A DNA stretch of 64,000 bases from Roseibium litorale (GTDB taxonomy: Bacteria; Pseudomonadota; Alphaproteobacteria; Rhizobiales; Stappiaceae). Positions 492 to 5,206 of the stretch are shown here, in pieces (the stretch's first letter is position 1; each line of letters starts with the position of its first letter). The stretch spans positions 1 through 64,000 of the forward strand of contig NZ_JACYXI010000004.1 of NCBI RefSeq assembly GCF_014842915.1. Direction: 5' to 3'. The translations under genes were made by a program, and so were the position numbers. The notes under the pieces are model-generated. The model saw only the letters and a program-made list of their open reading frames with translations. It searched no databases and was not told the DNA's origin.

Positions 492-1691
492 TTAGCATCC
501 CGGCTTGAGCGCAAGCACGCTGGCCAGTCCGCCTGCCGCTGCAATGGCTGCAATTCCCCGTGCTTCGCCGGCTTCTTTTTTCAAATCTTTTTTCAAATCG
601 TCCTTCAAGCCATGGAATAGGCGCACCGCAAGAATAGCTCCGGACGCCCCAATCGGATGGCCTCTCGCGAGCGCACCACCTTCCAGGTTCACTGTCGCCG
701 GGTCCCAAGCCAGATCTTCAAGCGTTGCCATGGCCTGCGGGGCATAGGCTTCCATCAGCTCCAGCCGCTGATAGCGGGAAGGGCTGGTCCCTTCCCGTTT
801 CATCAGCTCTTTGATGGCCAGCGTTGGAACAAGCGCCGGCTGATCTGGATTACCTCCAAGGGACAGGCCTGCTGTCACCTCCATGACCTGCCCCGTCAAC
901 GCCGGCTCTTTCCGGACCAGATCTCGAGCGAACTCGTCACTGGCGATCACGAGAGCTGCAGCAGCATCTGCTTCCACCGCCGTAGCTGCTGACAGGAGAG
1001 CCGTCTCACCTGCCCCGGCAAGAACCGGGCTGCGCAAGGCAACAGCCCCAGACAACAAACGAGTAAAGCTGTCCCGGGCGAGAGGCTCAGATTCCGGTCC
1101 AACCCGAACCAGTTCTCTTGAGAACAGCCCGGCAGCTTCTGCGGCCCTGGCCTTGGCATGGGAGTGAACCGCATAGGAGGCCTGATCTGCCCGGAGATAC
1201 ATCCGGTCCCTCGCAAGACGGCCTGCCGCCTCTGCCAGGTCCGGGTCTTCGAAGGGAGCAGGCGCAAAAGCGGGGCGCGTATAAGGAACAGGCGCCAGAT
1301 CCGGCGAGAGCGGGCGGTGCGCACGCAAGGGCGAGCGGGAAAAACTCTCCATCCCCCCCGCGATCACACAAGAGGCCGCCCCGGATTCGATCAGACGAAC
1401 CCCAAACAGGATCGCATCCAGACCGGAGCAGCATTGCGTATCAAGGGTCAGCGCGGGAACAGTTCTGGGAAGACCGGCGCGCAGGGCTGCCAGCCTGGCC
1501 GGGTTTCCTCCGCCATAAAGCGCATTGCCGAAGATGACGTGATCGACGGCGTCGCCAGACAGGCCGCACTGCGCCAGAAGAGCCTTGATGACCGGAGCGG
1601 CAAGCTCGTCCGCCTGCAAAGACTTGAAGGCCCCTCCCCTCGGCGCAACCGGTGTCCGCAGACCTGCCAGGATCACCGCCTTGCTGCTCAT
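492..1691 (-). CDS. Thiolase-family protein lacking two catalytic residues, last gene of the biotin-transporter operon
   Basis: This 399-residue protein has the normal length and fold signatures of a beta-ketothiolase. The nucleophilic cysteine motif is present (C87 in QCCSG) and so is GHPIGASG with H345. Two other active-site motifs are altered. The NEAF motif reads MEAYA (M313 for Asn), and the C-terminal CxGGGxG motif reads AAAGGLA, so the second catalytic Cys is Ala (about position 384). It could therefore load an acyl group on C87 but would be poor at ordinary Claisen chemistry. Its start overlaps the ligase stop by 4 nt (ATGA), indicating translational coupling. A thiolase, an AMP-ligase and BioY also occur together in the B. 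subtilis yhfS-yhfT-yhfU cluster. The real reaction is unknown. Confidence 0.8.
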   Translation of the reverse strand: MSSKAVILAGLRTPVAPRGGAFKSLQADELAAPVIKALLAQCGLSGDAVDHVIFGNALYGGGNPARLAALRAGLPRTVPALTLDTQCCSGLDAILFGVRLIESGAASCVIAGGMESFSRSPLRAHRPLSPDLAPVPYTRPAFAPAPFEDPDLAEAAGRLARDRMYLRADQASYAVHSHAKARAAEAAGLFSRELVRVGPESEPLARDSFTRLLSGAVALRSPVLAGAGETALLSAATAVEADAAAALVIASDEFARDLVRKEPALTGQVMEVTAGLSLGGNPDQPALVPTLAIKELMKREGTSPSRYQRLELMEAYAPQAMATLEDLAWDPATVNLEGGALARGHPIGASGAILAVRLFHGLKDDLKKDLKKEAGEARGIAAIAAAGGLASVLALKPGC

Positions 1692-3154
1692 ACCTTCAGC
1701 CCCTCCGGAGCGGCTGGCGGAGTCTTGCCCTCAGTGACCATCGCCTCCAGCTGCTTCAGGTCGATCTTGCCGCCCGGTGTCAGCGGCATTGCGTCCAGAA
1801 ACAGAAACGCCCTCGGTGTCCGCGACCGTCCGAGTAGTGTGAGACAATGACGCCGCAGCCCGGCCCCTCCCAGTCCGGACCCCGTCTCCGTTTGAACCAC
1901 GGCCACGAGAGCGGCTCCGCGCACCGGGTCCCGCTTTGCAACCACAGCCGCAAGGGCAACATCCTCATGCGAGAGCAGCACCTGCTCGACCTCCTCAGGA
2001 TAGATGTTGAGCCCTGAAGTTATGATCATGCGCTTTTCGCGCCCAGCGAGATAGAGGAAGCCGTTTTCATCAAGCCAGCCACGGTCCCCGACGGTCAGCC
2101 ATCCATTCTCGCGGGCAATTTCACTGCCGCCGCCGCAAATATAGCCATCGAACAGCATGGAGCTGCGCACCCAGATCGCTCCGGTCTCACCCGCTGGCAG
2201 CTCTTCCTGGTTTTCGCTGCGGATGGAAATCCCGACACCATAGGCAGCCCGCCCCACAGAGCCGTCCGGCGGATTGTCCTCGGGAGCGGAGATGGTGATG
2301 AAACTCATCTCTGACGCGCCATAGAACTCCACCAGCCGGGCACAGGGGAAAACCGACGCCATAGCCCTGCGGTCCGCTTCGCGCCATTTGGCGCCACTGG
2401 CAAGCACGAGCCTGACACCCTCCGCCGCACCGCTACGGCGCAGCTCTCCCGCCATGTAGTGGATCTGGGTTGGCGTGGCATAAAGAACGGATGGCCCTTC
2501 GGCCCGCAGACGCGCAGCCAGCCAGCGCGGATTGAAGCGCTCCGCGATTTCCACAACCGCTCCTGATGCGATGCCATGAACCGCTCCATAAAGGTGAAGC
2601 GAATGCACCATGTTGCCTGGAATGAGAACGCGGTCAGCTTCGCCGATTGCAAACTCCGCCGCGCTGACGGCGAAGCTGTCGAGCCAGGACCGGTGGCTGC
2701 GGCAATAGCCCTTCGGATCGCCGGTGGAGCCGGAGGTGAAGCCTGCGTAGAAAGGGGCATCTGCGGCGGGAGCGGCCCCGGCTGCATCCGTTGGTTCTCT
2801 CAAGGCAGTGCCCTTTGCCATGAGCGCCGGGAAGCTTCTCTCATCAAGGATGACAGAGGGCCGGGTTTGCGTCTCGATCCACTGGCGCCGCCGGTCCGGC
2901 CAGGCCGGATCATAGACCATGGCAACCGCTCCGGCCCGGGCAGCCGCAAAGAAGCCGATGAGAAGCCGGATGGGGTCTTCCAGGTACAAGGCGACCCGCC
3001 CGCCTTCCGGCAGGCGGGACCCAAGAGCCCGCGCAAGACACAGGATCTCATCGCTCAGCTGCCTGCGGGTGAGCGTGCGGGGGCCACAAGACAGCGCCAG
3101 CCGCTCAGGATCCGCCTCCGCCAGCGGCTGCACACTCTCGCCGACATATCCCAT
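1688..3154 (-). CDS. AMP-dependent acyl-CoA synthetase/ligase linked to bioY
   Basis: This 488-residue member of the ANL superfamily would activate a carboxylic acid through an acyl-adenylate to an acyl-CoA. The P-loop-like motif TSGSTGDPKG, the EFYGASE adenine-pocket motif, the VGDRGWLDENGFLYLAGR hinge region and the C-terminal GGKID catalytic lysine are all present, so it looks active. It lies between bioY (29-nt gap) and the thiolase (4-nt overlap) in one operon. The substrate is not evident. The context suggests a carboxylate related to biotin, such as biotin itself, a shortened biotin or a pimelate-type precursor. That is inference from neighbours. Confidence 0.85.
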   Translation of the reverse strand: MGYVGESVQPLAEADPERLALSCGPRTLTRRQLSDEILCLARALGSRLPEGGRVALYLEDPIRLLIGFFAAARAGAVAMVYDPAWPDRRRQWIETQTRPSVILDERSFPALMAKGTALREPTDAAGAAPAADAPFYAGFTSGSTGDPKGYCRSHRSWLDSFAVSAAEFAIGEADRVLIPGNMVHSLHLYGAVHGIASGAVVEIAERFNPRWLAARLRAEGPSVLYATPTQIHYMAGELRRSGAAEGVRLVLASGAKWREADRRAMASVFPCARLVEFYGASEMSFITISAPEDNPPDGSVGRAAYGVGISIRSENQEELPAGETGAIWVRSSMLFDGYICGGGSEIARENGWLTVGDRGWLDENGFLYLAGREKRMIITSGLNIYPEEVEQVLLSHEDVALAAVVAKRDPVRGAALVAVVQTETGSGLGGAGLRRHCLTLLGRSRTPRAFLFLDAMPLTPGGKIDLKQLEAMVTEGKTPPAAPEGLKV

Positions 3155-3183
3155 GGCGGATTGATCCAGCCAGATGTCCGGCT

Positions 3184-3738
3184 TCAGGAGCGGGACAGAA
3201 GCGCGCTCGGCAGGCCGCGCGCAACGGTTTCGGCCACGGCGGCGGCTACCACGACCTTGAGCAGATCCCCAGGCAGGAACACAGCGCTGCCCGCAGCGGC
3301 CTTCGCAAGGCTCATGTCCGCCAGGAAGGCGAGGCCTGGAATGCCGAAGAGATAGACAACCCCGATGCCGCCAACAGTGGCGGCAAGCGCCGCGGCAGGC
3401 AGGACCCGCCAGGACGCCGTCTTCTGCATGATCAGCCCGGCGGCAAGCGCTCCGAGCGGCCAGGCAAGGATGAACCCGGCGCCGGGAGACTGGAAGACCG
3501 CCAGGCCACCACGGCCACCGGCAAGAAGCGGCGCACCAAGGGCGACCAGGAACAGGAAGAGAAGAATGGAAAGGGCACCGCGAACCGGGCCAAGCATCAC
3601 GCCGGCCAGCATGATGCCGAGGGTCTGGGCGGTTACAGGCACGCCACCGGCAACCGGGATGGCCAGCTTCGGCAAAAGGCCAAGGGCAGCGGTCAGAGCA
3701 GCATAAAAGGCGATCTGAACCAGAGTACGGTCATTCAT
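3184..3738 (-). CDS. bioY: BioY, biotin-binding S component of an ECF transporter
   Basis: A hydrophobic 184-residue protein with about six membrane segments and the BioY hallmarks: a GGVPVTAQTLG segment, MLGPVRGALS, and a glycine-rich loop (AGGRGGLAVFQSPGAGF). BioY binds biotin at the membrane and is energised by BioM and BioN, encoded just upstream in the same operon. The ATG at 3738 is preferred because AAGGA sits 8 nt upstream; an in-frame ATG two codons earlier is possible. The order bioM-bioN-bioY is the usual alphaproteobacterial arrangement in altered order. Confidence 0.9.
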   Translation of the reverse strand: MNDRTLVQIAFYAALTAALGLLPKLAIPVAGGVPVTAQTLGIMLAGVMLGPVRGALSILLFLFLVALGAPLLAGGRGGLAVFQSPGAGFILAWPLGALAAGLIMQKTASWRVLPAAALAATVGGIGVVYLFGIPGLAFLADMSLAKAAAGSAVFLPGDLLKVVVAAAVAETVARGLPSALLSRS

Positions 3739-3788
3739 GCTCATTTCCTTTTCCGGATCAGCCGGCATCCAACACGCTCCGGCATCCC

Positions 3789-4433
3789 TCAGGTTATTGT
3801 CCGCGCGGGCAGTGCGCCGGGATTGTTATCCGCCAGGCCATCTGCACTACCCCGCGCCGTCAGCGCTTCGGCCACATTGTCGGCCATGGCAAGAGACTGC
3901 AGCATGAACGGCCCCATCAGCCGCCAGCTGCCACGCTTGCCGGTGCGGGCCTGATAGGCTTCGCGCAAGGAGGAATATACACCGAGAAGCACCGGCGCAA
4001 ATCTTAGCACAAGGGTGACCGCCAGAGCGGGCTTGCGGGGGGAGAAGCCGAACCAGCCGAGCGGCGCAAAAAGCCGCATGACGGCCTGAAGCATGTCATC
4101 CATCCGGGTGGTGATGGTCACGAGATTGGCCAGGAGGACCAAAGCCGCCAGCCTCTCGACCGAGACAATGCCTTCCCAGATGTCTCCGGTGATTGCGTGC
4201 AAGGCAAAGATCATTGCCAGCATGAGAGCCATAGGCCGCAAGGCTCTGAGTTCACCAAGCCCCCGCGTGCCGAGGCTCGCGTAAAGCCCCAGCACCAGAA
4301 CCAGCACGGCACTCAAGACCGGAATGTCCTTGATGGGAAACACCGCCATGCTCACAACCGCCAGGCCAGTCAGCTTGAGCCAGGCCGGAAGCCGGTGGCA
4401 CCAGGACCGGCCCGGCATATAGAGAGAGATCAC
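3789..4433 (-). CDS. bioN: BioN, transmembrane coupling (T) component of the biotin ECF transporter
   Basis: This 214-residue CbiQ/EcfT-type protein has several membrane helices. Near the C-terminus are the two short Ala-Arg signatures of T components (YQARTG and LTARGS), which form the coupling helices that contact the ATPase. Its start overlaps the bioM stop by 4 nt, so the two are translationally coupled. It links ATP hydrolysis by BioM to toppling of BioY. The length fits the family (about 200-260). Confidence 0.9.
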   Translation of the reverse strand: MISLYMPGRSWCHRLPAWLKLTGLAVVSMAVFPIKDIPVLSAVLVLVLGLYASLGTRGLGELRALRPMALMLAMIFALHAITGDIWEGIVSVERLAALVLLANLVTITTRMDDMLQAVMRLFAPLGWFGFSPRKPALAVTLVLRFAPVLLGVYSSLREAYQARTGKRGSWRLMGPFMLQSLAMADNVAEALTARGSADGLADNNPGALPARTIT

Positions 4434-5206
4434 AAGTCCTCTCCATTCAGCGGGGCCGCGGCCCGGACCTCAAGATCCACCTCATAGGCGGGTAGAACCT
4501 CCGCAGGCGGTCCGTCCATGCGAATGCGCCCCGCTTCCAGCCACACCACCCTGTCATAGGATCGCAAAAGGCTGAGATCGTGGCTGATCATGACGATCTT
4601 CTGGTCCAGCCCGTCCAGCAGCCTGTGGATCCGCCGGGAGGCCAATCCGTCCAGAGACGACATGGGCTCGTCCAGCACCAGCAGCCGGGGCTGCATCACC
4701 AGAACGGCAAGGATGCAGATCAGCTGTTTCTGGCCCTCGGAAAGTTCGGCAAACGGTTTTCCGGCAAGATGAGCGCATCCATGCTGAGCGAGAAAGTCGA
4801 GCGCTCCGGCCCGGGCCGTCTGTTTGGCCTCACCAAGCTGCGTCAGCCCGAAGGCGATCTCTTCTTCCACCGTCGGAAAGATGGCCTGGTGATCGGGGTT
4901 CTGGAACACGAAGCCCACATAGCGCGGCAGTTCGGCCAAAGCCTGTTTCGTTTCTGCACCGAAAACGCGGACGCTGCCCCGGGAGGGAAGGCGAAGCCCG
5001 TTCAGGAGACGGATCAGGCTGCTCTTGCCCGATCCGTTGAGGCCGACGAGACCGATGCGGCGCTCAGACAGGCGAAGGGAGATATCCGTGAGCACCTGAC
5101 GATTCGACAAGGTCAGGCTGACACCCTCCAGCAGCGCATAAGGACTGGCGTCAGGATCAAAGGCTGCGGCGGCGCGGTTCTGCTGCCGTTTCCGAAAGAA
5201 AGCCAT
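4430..5206 (-). CDS. bioM: BioM, ATPase of the biotin ECF transporter
   Basis: This 258-residue ABC ATPase has Walker A GLNGSGKSS, Q-loop FQNPDHQ, signature LSEGQKQ, Walker B LLVLDEP and the H-loop ISHD. FQNPDHQ and LSEGQ are typical of ECF/CbiO ATPases. An N-terminal extension of about 25 residues is rich in R/Q/A. It is the first gene of the operon bioM-bioN-bioY-ligase-thiolase, with a promoter-like sequence 50-75 nt upstream. Energy-coupling role is established for the family. Confidence 0.9.
   Translation of the reverse strand: MAFFRKRQQNRAAAAFDPDASPYALLEGVSLTLSNRQVLTDISLRLSERRIGLVGLNGSGKSSLIRLLNGLRLPSRGSVRVFGAETKQALAELPRYVGFVFQNPDHQAIFPTVEEEIAFGLTQLGEAKQTARAGALDFLAQHGCAHLAGKPFAELSEGQKQLICILAVLVMQPRLLVLDEPMSSLDGLASRRIHRLLDGLDQKIVMISHDLSLLRSYDRVVWLEAGRIRMDGPPAEVLPAYEVDLEVRAAAPLNGEDL

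Follow-up and report, generated by a model that had tools for sequence, protein, structure and literature searches.

The biotin importer subunit BioY has been described in company with a ligase and a thiolase in several bacteria. In Bacillus subtilis, the yhfUTS operon encodes a BioY-like protein (YhfU), a ligase (YhfT) and a thiolase (YhfS), and one study describes how BirA, in the presence of biotin and ATP, binds the yhfU operator and regulates the operon (PMC4016012). Two further reports describe control of yhfS-yhfT by BirA in Staphylococcus aureus (PMC6391492, PMC7235819), and a fourth has the BioY, AMP-binding and thiolase family proteins of Sinorhizobium meliloti bioB(BioY)-SMc00965-SMc00966 responding together to NolR (PMC12445080). 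Both the trio and its control by BirA are already published; for the function of the ligase-thiolase pair we found no account in the open-access literature, in agreement with a preliminary description of the locus studied here, which knew of no described function for the trio. That locus is an operon with the same three-gene content as yhfUTS in Roseibium litorale, lying at positions 492 to 5206 of a 64,000-nucleotide stretch (NZ_JACYXI010000004.1, positions 1 to 64,000; hereafter the window).

Here, we compare the operon with its relatives in three phyla, describe a remodelled active site shared by their thiolases, and tentatively propose, at somewhat less than even confidence, that the pair performs a two-carbon elongation restoring biotin from side-chain-shortened vitamers, bisnorbiotin for example, where we infer both the substrate and the direction of the reaction. 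We favor elongation because a ligase, an enzyme of condensing fold and, in part of the family, genes of the fatty-acid synthesis (FAS) type gather at a biotin importer, under biotin control in two species studied, and in many genomes without biotin synthesis.

A biotin transporter operon carrying a ligase and an altered thiolase

The window is the start of its contig (contig 30 of the assembly, first 64 kb), so that the view ends at position 1. The operon runs bioM-bioN-bioY-ligase-thiolase on the minus strand from 5206 to 492, with all five genes present and almost contiguous: 4-bp overlaps join bioM to bioN and ligase to thiolase, and spacers of 20 bp and 29 bp separate bioN from bioY and bioY from the ligase. 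The features are as follows, with the neighboring regulator gene last.

4430..5206, minus strand: bioM, energy-coupling factor (ECF)-type ATPase (A component); Pfam ABC_tran, 86 bits
3789..4433, minus strand: bioN, ECF transmembrane T component; Pfam CbiQ, 43.7 bits
3184..3768, minus strand: bioY, biotin S component; Pfam BioY, 114.8 bits; sole PDB relative 4dve, E 2.2e-19
1688..3154, minus strand: ANL-type acyl-CoA ligase, YhfT-like; Pfam AMP-binding, 178 bits; ANL motifs
492..1691, minus strand: thiolase-fold protein with Cys87 and His345, A384 in place of the second Cys and Met313 in place of the NEAF Asn; Pfam Thiolase_N, 134 bits, and Thiolase_C, 74 bits
5296..6708, minus strand: MocR-type regulator (GntR and aminotransferase domains); Pfam GntR, 60 bits, and Aminotran_1_2, 84 bits

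BioY, CbiQ-type and ATPase subunits occur here together, as defines an ECF biotin transporter BioMNY; the best NCBIfam matches of BioM are ECF ATPases, below cut-off. The ligase keeps the ANL motifs TSGSTGDPK, YGASE, TVGD and GK463 (lysine 463), and its best NCBIfam match, NF005797 (PRK07638), falls below cut-off at 357 bits against 518. Coordinates, Pfam and these motifs bear out the five-gene order with an intact ANL ligase that the preliminary description had read from the sequence.

The fold of the fifth protein and its matches to PF00108 and PF02803 place it in the thiolase superfamily. An AlphaFold model built on a 46-sequence alignment reached a pLDDT of 91.5 and a pTM of 0.93, and the 50 matches listed by a Foldseek search with it were thiolases, at query TM-scores of 0.84–0.90. 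The only NCBIfam cut-off passed was that of the broad model TIGR01930 (250.2 over 240.55); the second match, NF005212 (PRK06690), stayed below at 194.5 of 498. Measured against a working acetyl-CoA C-acyltransferase, the protein has the catalytic Cys (C87 in DTQCCSG) and the GHP His (H345 in ARGHPIG) and lacks the second Cys of CxGGG (A384 in IAAAGGL) and the NEAF Asn (M313 in LMEAYA), all four residues being as first claimed. We dropped a pseudogene reading, since the frames are open and the Cys and His are fixed in 60 of 60 family members.

The ligase-thiolase pair is conserved across three phyla

We searched a sample of 297 genomes from the order of the window, picking loci on similarity to the ligase and thiolase alone. 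The ligase was found at E 1e-50 or better in 27 genomes, and the thiolase at 1e-60 in 24 of these; a thiolase directly adjoined the ligase in 27/27 (by tblastn on the fetched stretches). This ligase-thiolase link is far above chance. BioY lay within the same stretch as the pair at 19 of the 27 loci; of the remaining eight, one (L054) is truncated by the contig end yet has bioMN, and seven are without BioY. BioY was present somewhere in the genome in 27/27 pair carriers versus 173/270 others of the order (Fisher p 1.7e-5, kinship ignored).

Beyond the order, the ligase matched at 1e-60 in 34 of 200 genomes of the class of Fictibacillus. Among 18 Bacillota places besides the Fictibacillus locus L070, the thiolase sat beside the ligase in 17, and BioY was present in 12 of those 17; these places comprise the 14 best and four lower of the 34 genomes with a match, besides genome G322, and the rest may be other ligases. 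A ligase-like match without an adjoining thiolase (L162) was excluded. The pair is sporadic in the class of Arthrobacter, where the ligase matched at 1e-45 in 2/197 genomes, one of them the Arthrobacter genome itself (G319); the named actinomycete carriers are Arthrobacter, Paenarthrobacter, Rhodococcus, Nocardia and a Streptantibioticus plasmid.

The set compared below holds 60 loci from Alphaproteobacteria, Bacillota and Actinomycetota, 46 of them with BioY, and those outside the order were chosen partly by their neighbors. From 80 listed contig loci, the eight with the ligase beside a thiolase joined the family and the other 72 formed the outgroup, a choice again made by neighbors; eight of 43 listed plasmid loci were opened, with 152 further records lying beyond those. 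Genes in the compared loci were called with a custom caller. The view that the link spans phyla, voiced before these neighborhoods were searched, holds for ligase, thiolase and bioY alike.

Individual loci vary in arrangement. One bioMN-ligase-thiolase operon contains two tandem bioY genes (L047, 4996-6123), as if one ECF module fed two S components. In Rhodococcus and Nocardia (L075, L089, L117) the order is bioY, a short ANL protein, thiolase, bioM, bioN and a second ANL protein, and the thiolases carry Thr at the NEAF Asn position. Two loci (L149, L153) resemble the B. subtilis-type yhf region by eye, with a histidine-phosphatase-like gene after the thiolase and a methyl-accepting-type gene before bioY, and on a Thioclava plasmid a type II 3-dehydroquinate dehydratase gene immediately precedes the pair (L063, 6410-6847).

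Loss of the second cysteine marks the thiolase family

Across the alignment, 60/60 family members retain the nucleophilic Cys and the His of GHP, together with Asp84 and Gln86, and none of the 60 has the second Cys (Ala 31, Gly 26, Ser 3). All 72 outgroup thiolases have both the second Cys and the NEAF Asn, and 61 of the 72 have Asn where the family has Asp84. Two outgroup sequences (L069, L098) read DRQC yet have the canonical residues. At the NEAF position the family has Asn in 32, Met in 25 and Thr in 3. The Met forms have further features of their own: Arg343 before the GHP motif in 25/25 and in 0/35 of the others, and Ala for the Gly of the TAGN motif in 23/25. Position 238 is Cys in 35/35 non-Met members, Ser in 63/72 outgroup sequences and Ala in 21/25 of the Met clade.

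In the tree, the branch splitting the family from the outgroup has an SH-aLRT of 100, and the Met forms lie on one side of another branch with the same value. On these sequences, loss of the second Cys is a mark of the whole family as sampled, and Met arose later, within the window's clade. The two features that had been noted together in the window protein part company here: the missing second Cys is conserved throughout (60/60), and the Met belongs to one clade (25/60) and not to the family at large. As a separate observation, Cys238 in the TAGN loop of the non-Met members is a possible relocated second cysteine.

The second Cys of a thiolase is the base for Claisen condensation of acetyl-CoA, and Cys-His-Asn is a residue set found in decarboxylating ketoacyl synthases. 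Because the Claisen base is lost while Cys and His stay, along with Asn in 32/60, a malonyl thioester is the likely extender in the Asn members; the case is weaker for the window's clade.

Elongation-type neighbors suggest a condensing enzyme

The neighborhoods of the pair offer further hints to its chemistry. In Bacillota the operon often extends past the pair. A MaoC/HadB-like gene and a more weakly supported HadA-like partner occur there in L070, L146, L147, L152, L154 and L155; the HadB-like genes pass the Pfam MaoC cut-off in L070, L146 and L154, and also in L152, and the other two were assigned by blastp. A FabG-like short-chain dehydrogenase comes next in the run in L150, L152, L154, L155, L156 and L158 (Pfam on four), and L152, L154 and L155 also encode a FabK-like protein after the last of the ECF genes. 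The L152 protein has FabK as its sole strong NCBIfam match (283 bits, cut-off 453). The full order in L152 is bioY, ligase, thiolase, HadA-like, HadB-like, FabG-like, ECF ATPases, T component and FabK-like; L154 and L155 repeat it from the ligase on, and in all three loci these genes form one run on one strand. We rejected the small open reading frames of L159-L161 as HadAB, as an 87-aa product aligns to HadB (hhalign probability 82) and a 127-aa product to HadA only at 16.

Other loci carry different candidates. A 4HBT thioesterase and a medium-chain dehydrogenase/reductase (MDR) lie near the pair in L051, L053, L057 (Rhizobium), L061 (Sinorhizobium) and the actinomycete L062, and the thioesterase alone in L054. 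A nitroreductase-family gene, perhaps a flavin enoyl reductase, is near the module in several alphaproteobacteria (L049, L050, L058, L059, L063). For thioesterase, MDR and nitroreductase, one protein of each kind was checked in Pfam, and the reactions are those expected from the family. The run in L150 (genome G481) goes on into a short-chain dehydrogenase, glycosyltransferase-like genes, an MFS-like protein and an acyl-CoA dehydrogenase, and resembles a larger biosynthetic cluster.

We suggest the following route. BioMNY would import biotin together with side-chain-shortened biotin such as bisnorbiotin, a known product of biotin beta-oxidation, and the ligase would turn the imported acid into its CoA thioester. 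The acyl group would then pass to Cys87 of the thiolase-fold enzyme, which would add a two-carbon unit, probably from a malonyl thioester. Reduction of the resulting beta-keto group, dehydration and a second reduction, by enzymes of the FabG, HadAB and FabK types, would be followed by release as biotin. The reductive steps would be encoded in the operon itself in some Bacillota and the window's organism would rely on housekeeping fatty-acid synthesis for them; its operon, as far as the contig extends, has no FabG-, HadAB- or FabK-type cassette.

The main rivals to elongation are an acyl transfer of the non-Claisen kind and a fatty-acid response to biotin shortage. In the first, biotin or a vitamer would be converted to its CoA ester by the ligase, and the thiolase-fold enzyme would hand the acyl group through Cys87 to a carrier protein, an amine or water, for trapping or processing. 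This suits the window's clade, in which the second Cys is gone, the NEAF Asn is replaced and the TAGN motif is altered, with Cys87 and His345 nevertheless retained in 25/25, and it suits the order, whose operons mostly stop after the thiolase. However, the ketoreductase-, dehydratase- and enoyl-reductase-like genes of some Bacillota operons befit a condensation product and would be superfluous for plain transfer. The preliminary description had suggested a non-Claisen thiolase; the Bacillota HadA/HadB-, FabG- and FabK-like genes suggest that none is required and that carbon-carbon elongation takes place, at least outside the window's clade, and we regard transfer as unlikely, though the foremost of the alternatives.

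The linked BioY proteins and biotin control

A branch with 100/100 support in the BioY tree has all 47 pair-linked BioYs, the window's included, on the same side, together with 16 of 49 unlinked ones (Fisher p 6e-14, kinship ignored; the 49 unlinked BioYs of the order were hand-picked from the listed matches). In two genomes, G170 and G219, the linked BioY belongs to that side and a second BioY, beside bioB, to the other. The split would fit a different substrate range; it may equally mark BioYs with dedicated bioMN.

We scanned the 18 Bacillota loci (253 kb) for BirA-like sites, allowing up to three mismatches to the box TTGTTAAC-N14-16-GTTAACAA. Of the 12 sites found, 10, in 10 of the 18 loci, lay within 75 bp of a bioY or ligase start. 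Shuffled sequence gave 0.38 sites per 15 kb, or about six per 253 kb, so it is the position of the sites that is striking and not their number. In loci with a box, abundant biotin should switch the module off, which fits salvage and not catabolism.

In the alphaproteobacteria, we looked for a BioR box (TTATMKATAA), and the 250 bp upstream of the window's bioM contained no match at up to two mismatches. Upstream of 35 alphaproteobacterial loci there was none at one mismatch or fewer, and at two mismatches L037 and L064 had a single site each, a weak negative given that several loci have a short upstream stretch or a first recognized gene that is not the first of the operon. The window contains no riboswitch or other RNA at gathering threshold. 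A gap of 89 bp separates the end of the MocR-type gene from bioM, and the MocR-type protein is a possible regulator of the operon; homologues at 63–64% identity accompany L029 and L030, from the same genus, and none of the other loci among the 60.

Biotin control also bears on the second rival, in which low biotin starves acetyl-CoA carboxylase and the regulon responds by inducing biotin uptake, fatty-acid activation and chain building independent of malonyl-CoA. Such a response would account for biotin-controlled expression, for carriers with and without bioB, and for the FabG/HadAB/FabK-like neighbors. It needs, however, the acetyl-CoA Claisen chemistry whose base Cys is gone in 60/60, and it leaves unexplained why the pair is so often inside the bioY operon and associated with a single side of the BioY tree; we judge it improbable on balance.

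Many carriers lack biotin synthesis

A score over the bioB cut-off was reached in 4/27 pair carriers of the order versus 97/270 others (Fisher p 0.03, kinship ignored), leaving 23 of the 27 without bioB. The window's genome, 99.86% complete, has no bioB (best match 37 bits against 225). The Bacillota genomes with the fullest operons (G491, G328, G513) likewise have no recognizable bioB, with best matches of 92, 36 and 33 bits, and no recognizable bioF, with best matches near 1e-6. Within the order bioF proved unusable as a marker: the top match per genome scored about 317–379 bits across the 27 carriers, against a cut-off of 426, and these matches are presumably ALA synthase and its relatives.

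With bioB missing, a precursor for de novo synthesis would be useless to those carriers. This tells against a supply of pimeloyl-CoA for de novo biotin, whether by activating pimelate or by extending glutaryl to pimeloyl as BioZ does. A ligase, a condensing enzyme and FAS-type steps would fit that role chemically, and bioB is present in 13/17 Bacillota carriers and in 23/52 of all carriers tested; against it stand the 23 order carriers without bioB, the three Bacillota carriers without recognizable bioB or bioF, and the fact that bioB is rarer with the pair than without it. We think this role quite improbable. The salvage route raised in the preliminary description gains support from these comparisons, and the dicarboxylate (pimelate) that it had listed among possible substrates does not fit the window's order. 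Biotin catabolism, that is import, CoA activation and beta-oxidative shortening as a carbon source, is very improbable: ligase and thiolase are both ends of beta-oxidation and the L150 operon has an acyl-CoA dehydrogenase, but the genes are biotin-repressed BirA targets in B. subtilis and S. aureus, no acyl-CoA dehydrogenase or enoyl-CoA hydratase was seen by eye in neighbor clusters of at least three loci, and a thiolase without its second Cys should be badly impaired in thiolysis.

How far the evidence carries the elongation proposal

Several observations weigh against elongation. The window operon, like most in the order, holds only the ligase and thiolase after bioY, and in the window's clade, where the NEAF Asn, too, is missing from the thiolase and the TAGN motif is altered, condensation seems doubtful. 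In the Bacillota, the FabG, HadA, HadB and FabK matches are all below their NCBIfam cut-offs, FabG-like short-chain dehydrogenases are common and can work in either direction, and the acyl-CoA dehydrogenase in the L150 run (Pfam) fits oxidation. BioY was not found in the 14-kb stretches of L154 and L155, and eight loci, including L152, L154 and L155, have no BirA-like box by the bioY or ligase start. The presence of bioB in 13/17 Bacillota carriers and 6/8 named-locus carriers means that the module is not limited to auxotrophs, and no single lineage combines all the features. We hold our confidence in the elongation proposal short of even because its features are scattered over lineages and the window's clade has a further-changed thiolase and no cassette.

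Stated at its widest, the proposal is that three phyla share a dedicated pathway lengthening the degraded side chain of biotin by two carbons through a ketoacyl-synthase-like thiolase, with auxotrophs living on a product thought useless as a vitamin. To this wider version we give a guarded credence, well under an even chance. If true, it would add a vitamin-repair pathway, alter the genome-based reading of biotin auxotrophy and define a thiolase subfamily with remodelled catalysis.

The contig end adds a side observation. Positions 1-491 of the window, non-coding and 3' of the thiolase, show partial conservation in L029, L030 and L033, and the contigs of these three loci stop 373-753 bp past their thiolases; a repeat such as a ribosomal RNA operon may follow the thiolase there.

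Comparison with known systems

New in this work are the family-wide active-site pattern, the elongation-type neighbors, the distribution of bioB in the order and the BioY split. The nearest known system remains B. subtilis yhfUTS. The Fictibacillus copies in L070 pass both NF005797 (537.6 over 518) and NF005212 (509.2 over 498), which we take to be YhfT and YhfS, and so link the window proteins to these families; the window proteins differ from them in falling under both cut-offs, in the Met at NEAF and in an operon with its own bioMN. A separate S. meliloti copy on pSymB (L061) has Asn in NEAF and the thioesterase and MDR alongside.

Among characterized enzymes, the Zoogloea ramigera, PhaA and beta-ketoadipyl-CoA thiolases share the fold and the catalytic Cys and His with the window protein; unlike biosynthetic and degradative thiolases, its family is without the second Cys and has Asp84 in place of the usual Asn. 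BioZ, a KAS III-like enzyme that converts glutaryl to pimeloyl thioesters, offers the likeness of a C2-adding condensing enzyme in biotin metabolism. The window pair, by contrast, belongs to another subfamily, lies beside a transporter and occurs, within the order, mostly in genomes without bioB. Finally, some Bacillota operon neighbors are similar, below cut-off, to FabG, HadAB and FabK of FAS II; unlike their counterparts in that system, they share an operon for biotin uptake with genes for a CoA ligase and an enzyme of thiolase fold.

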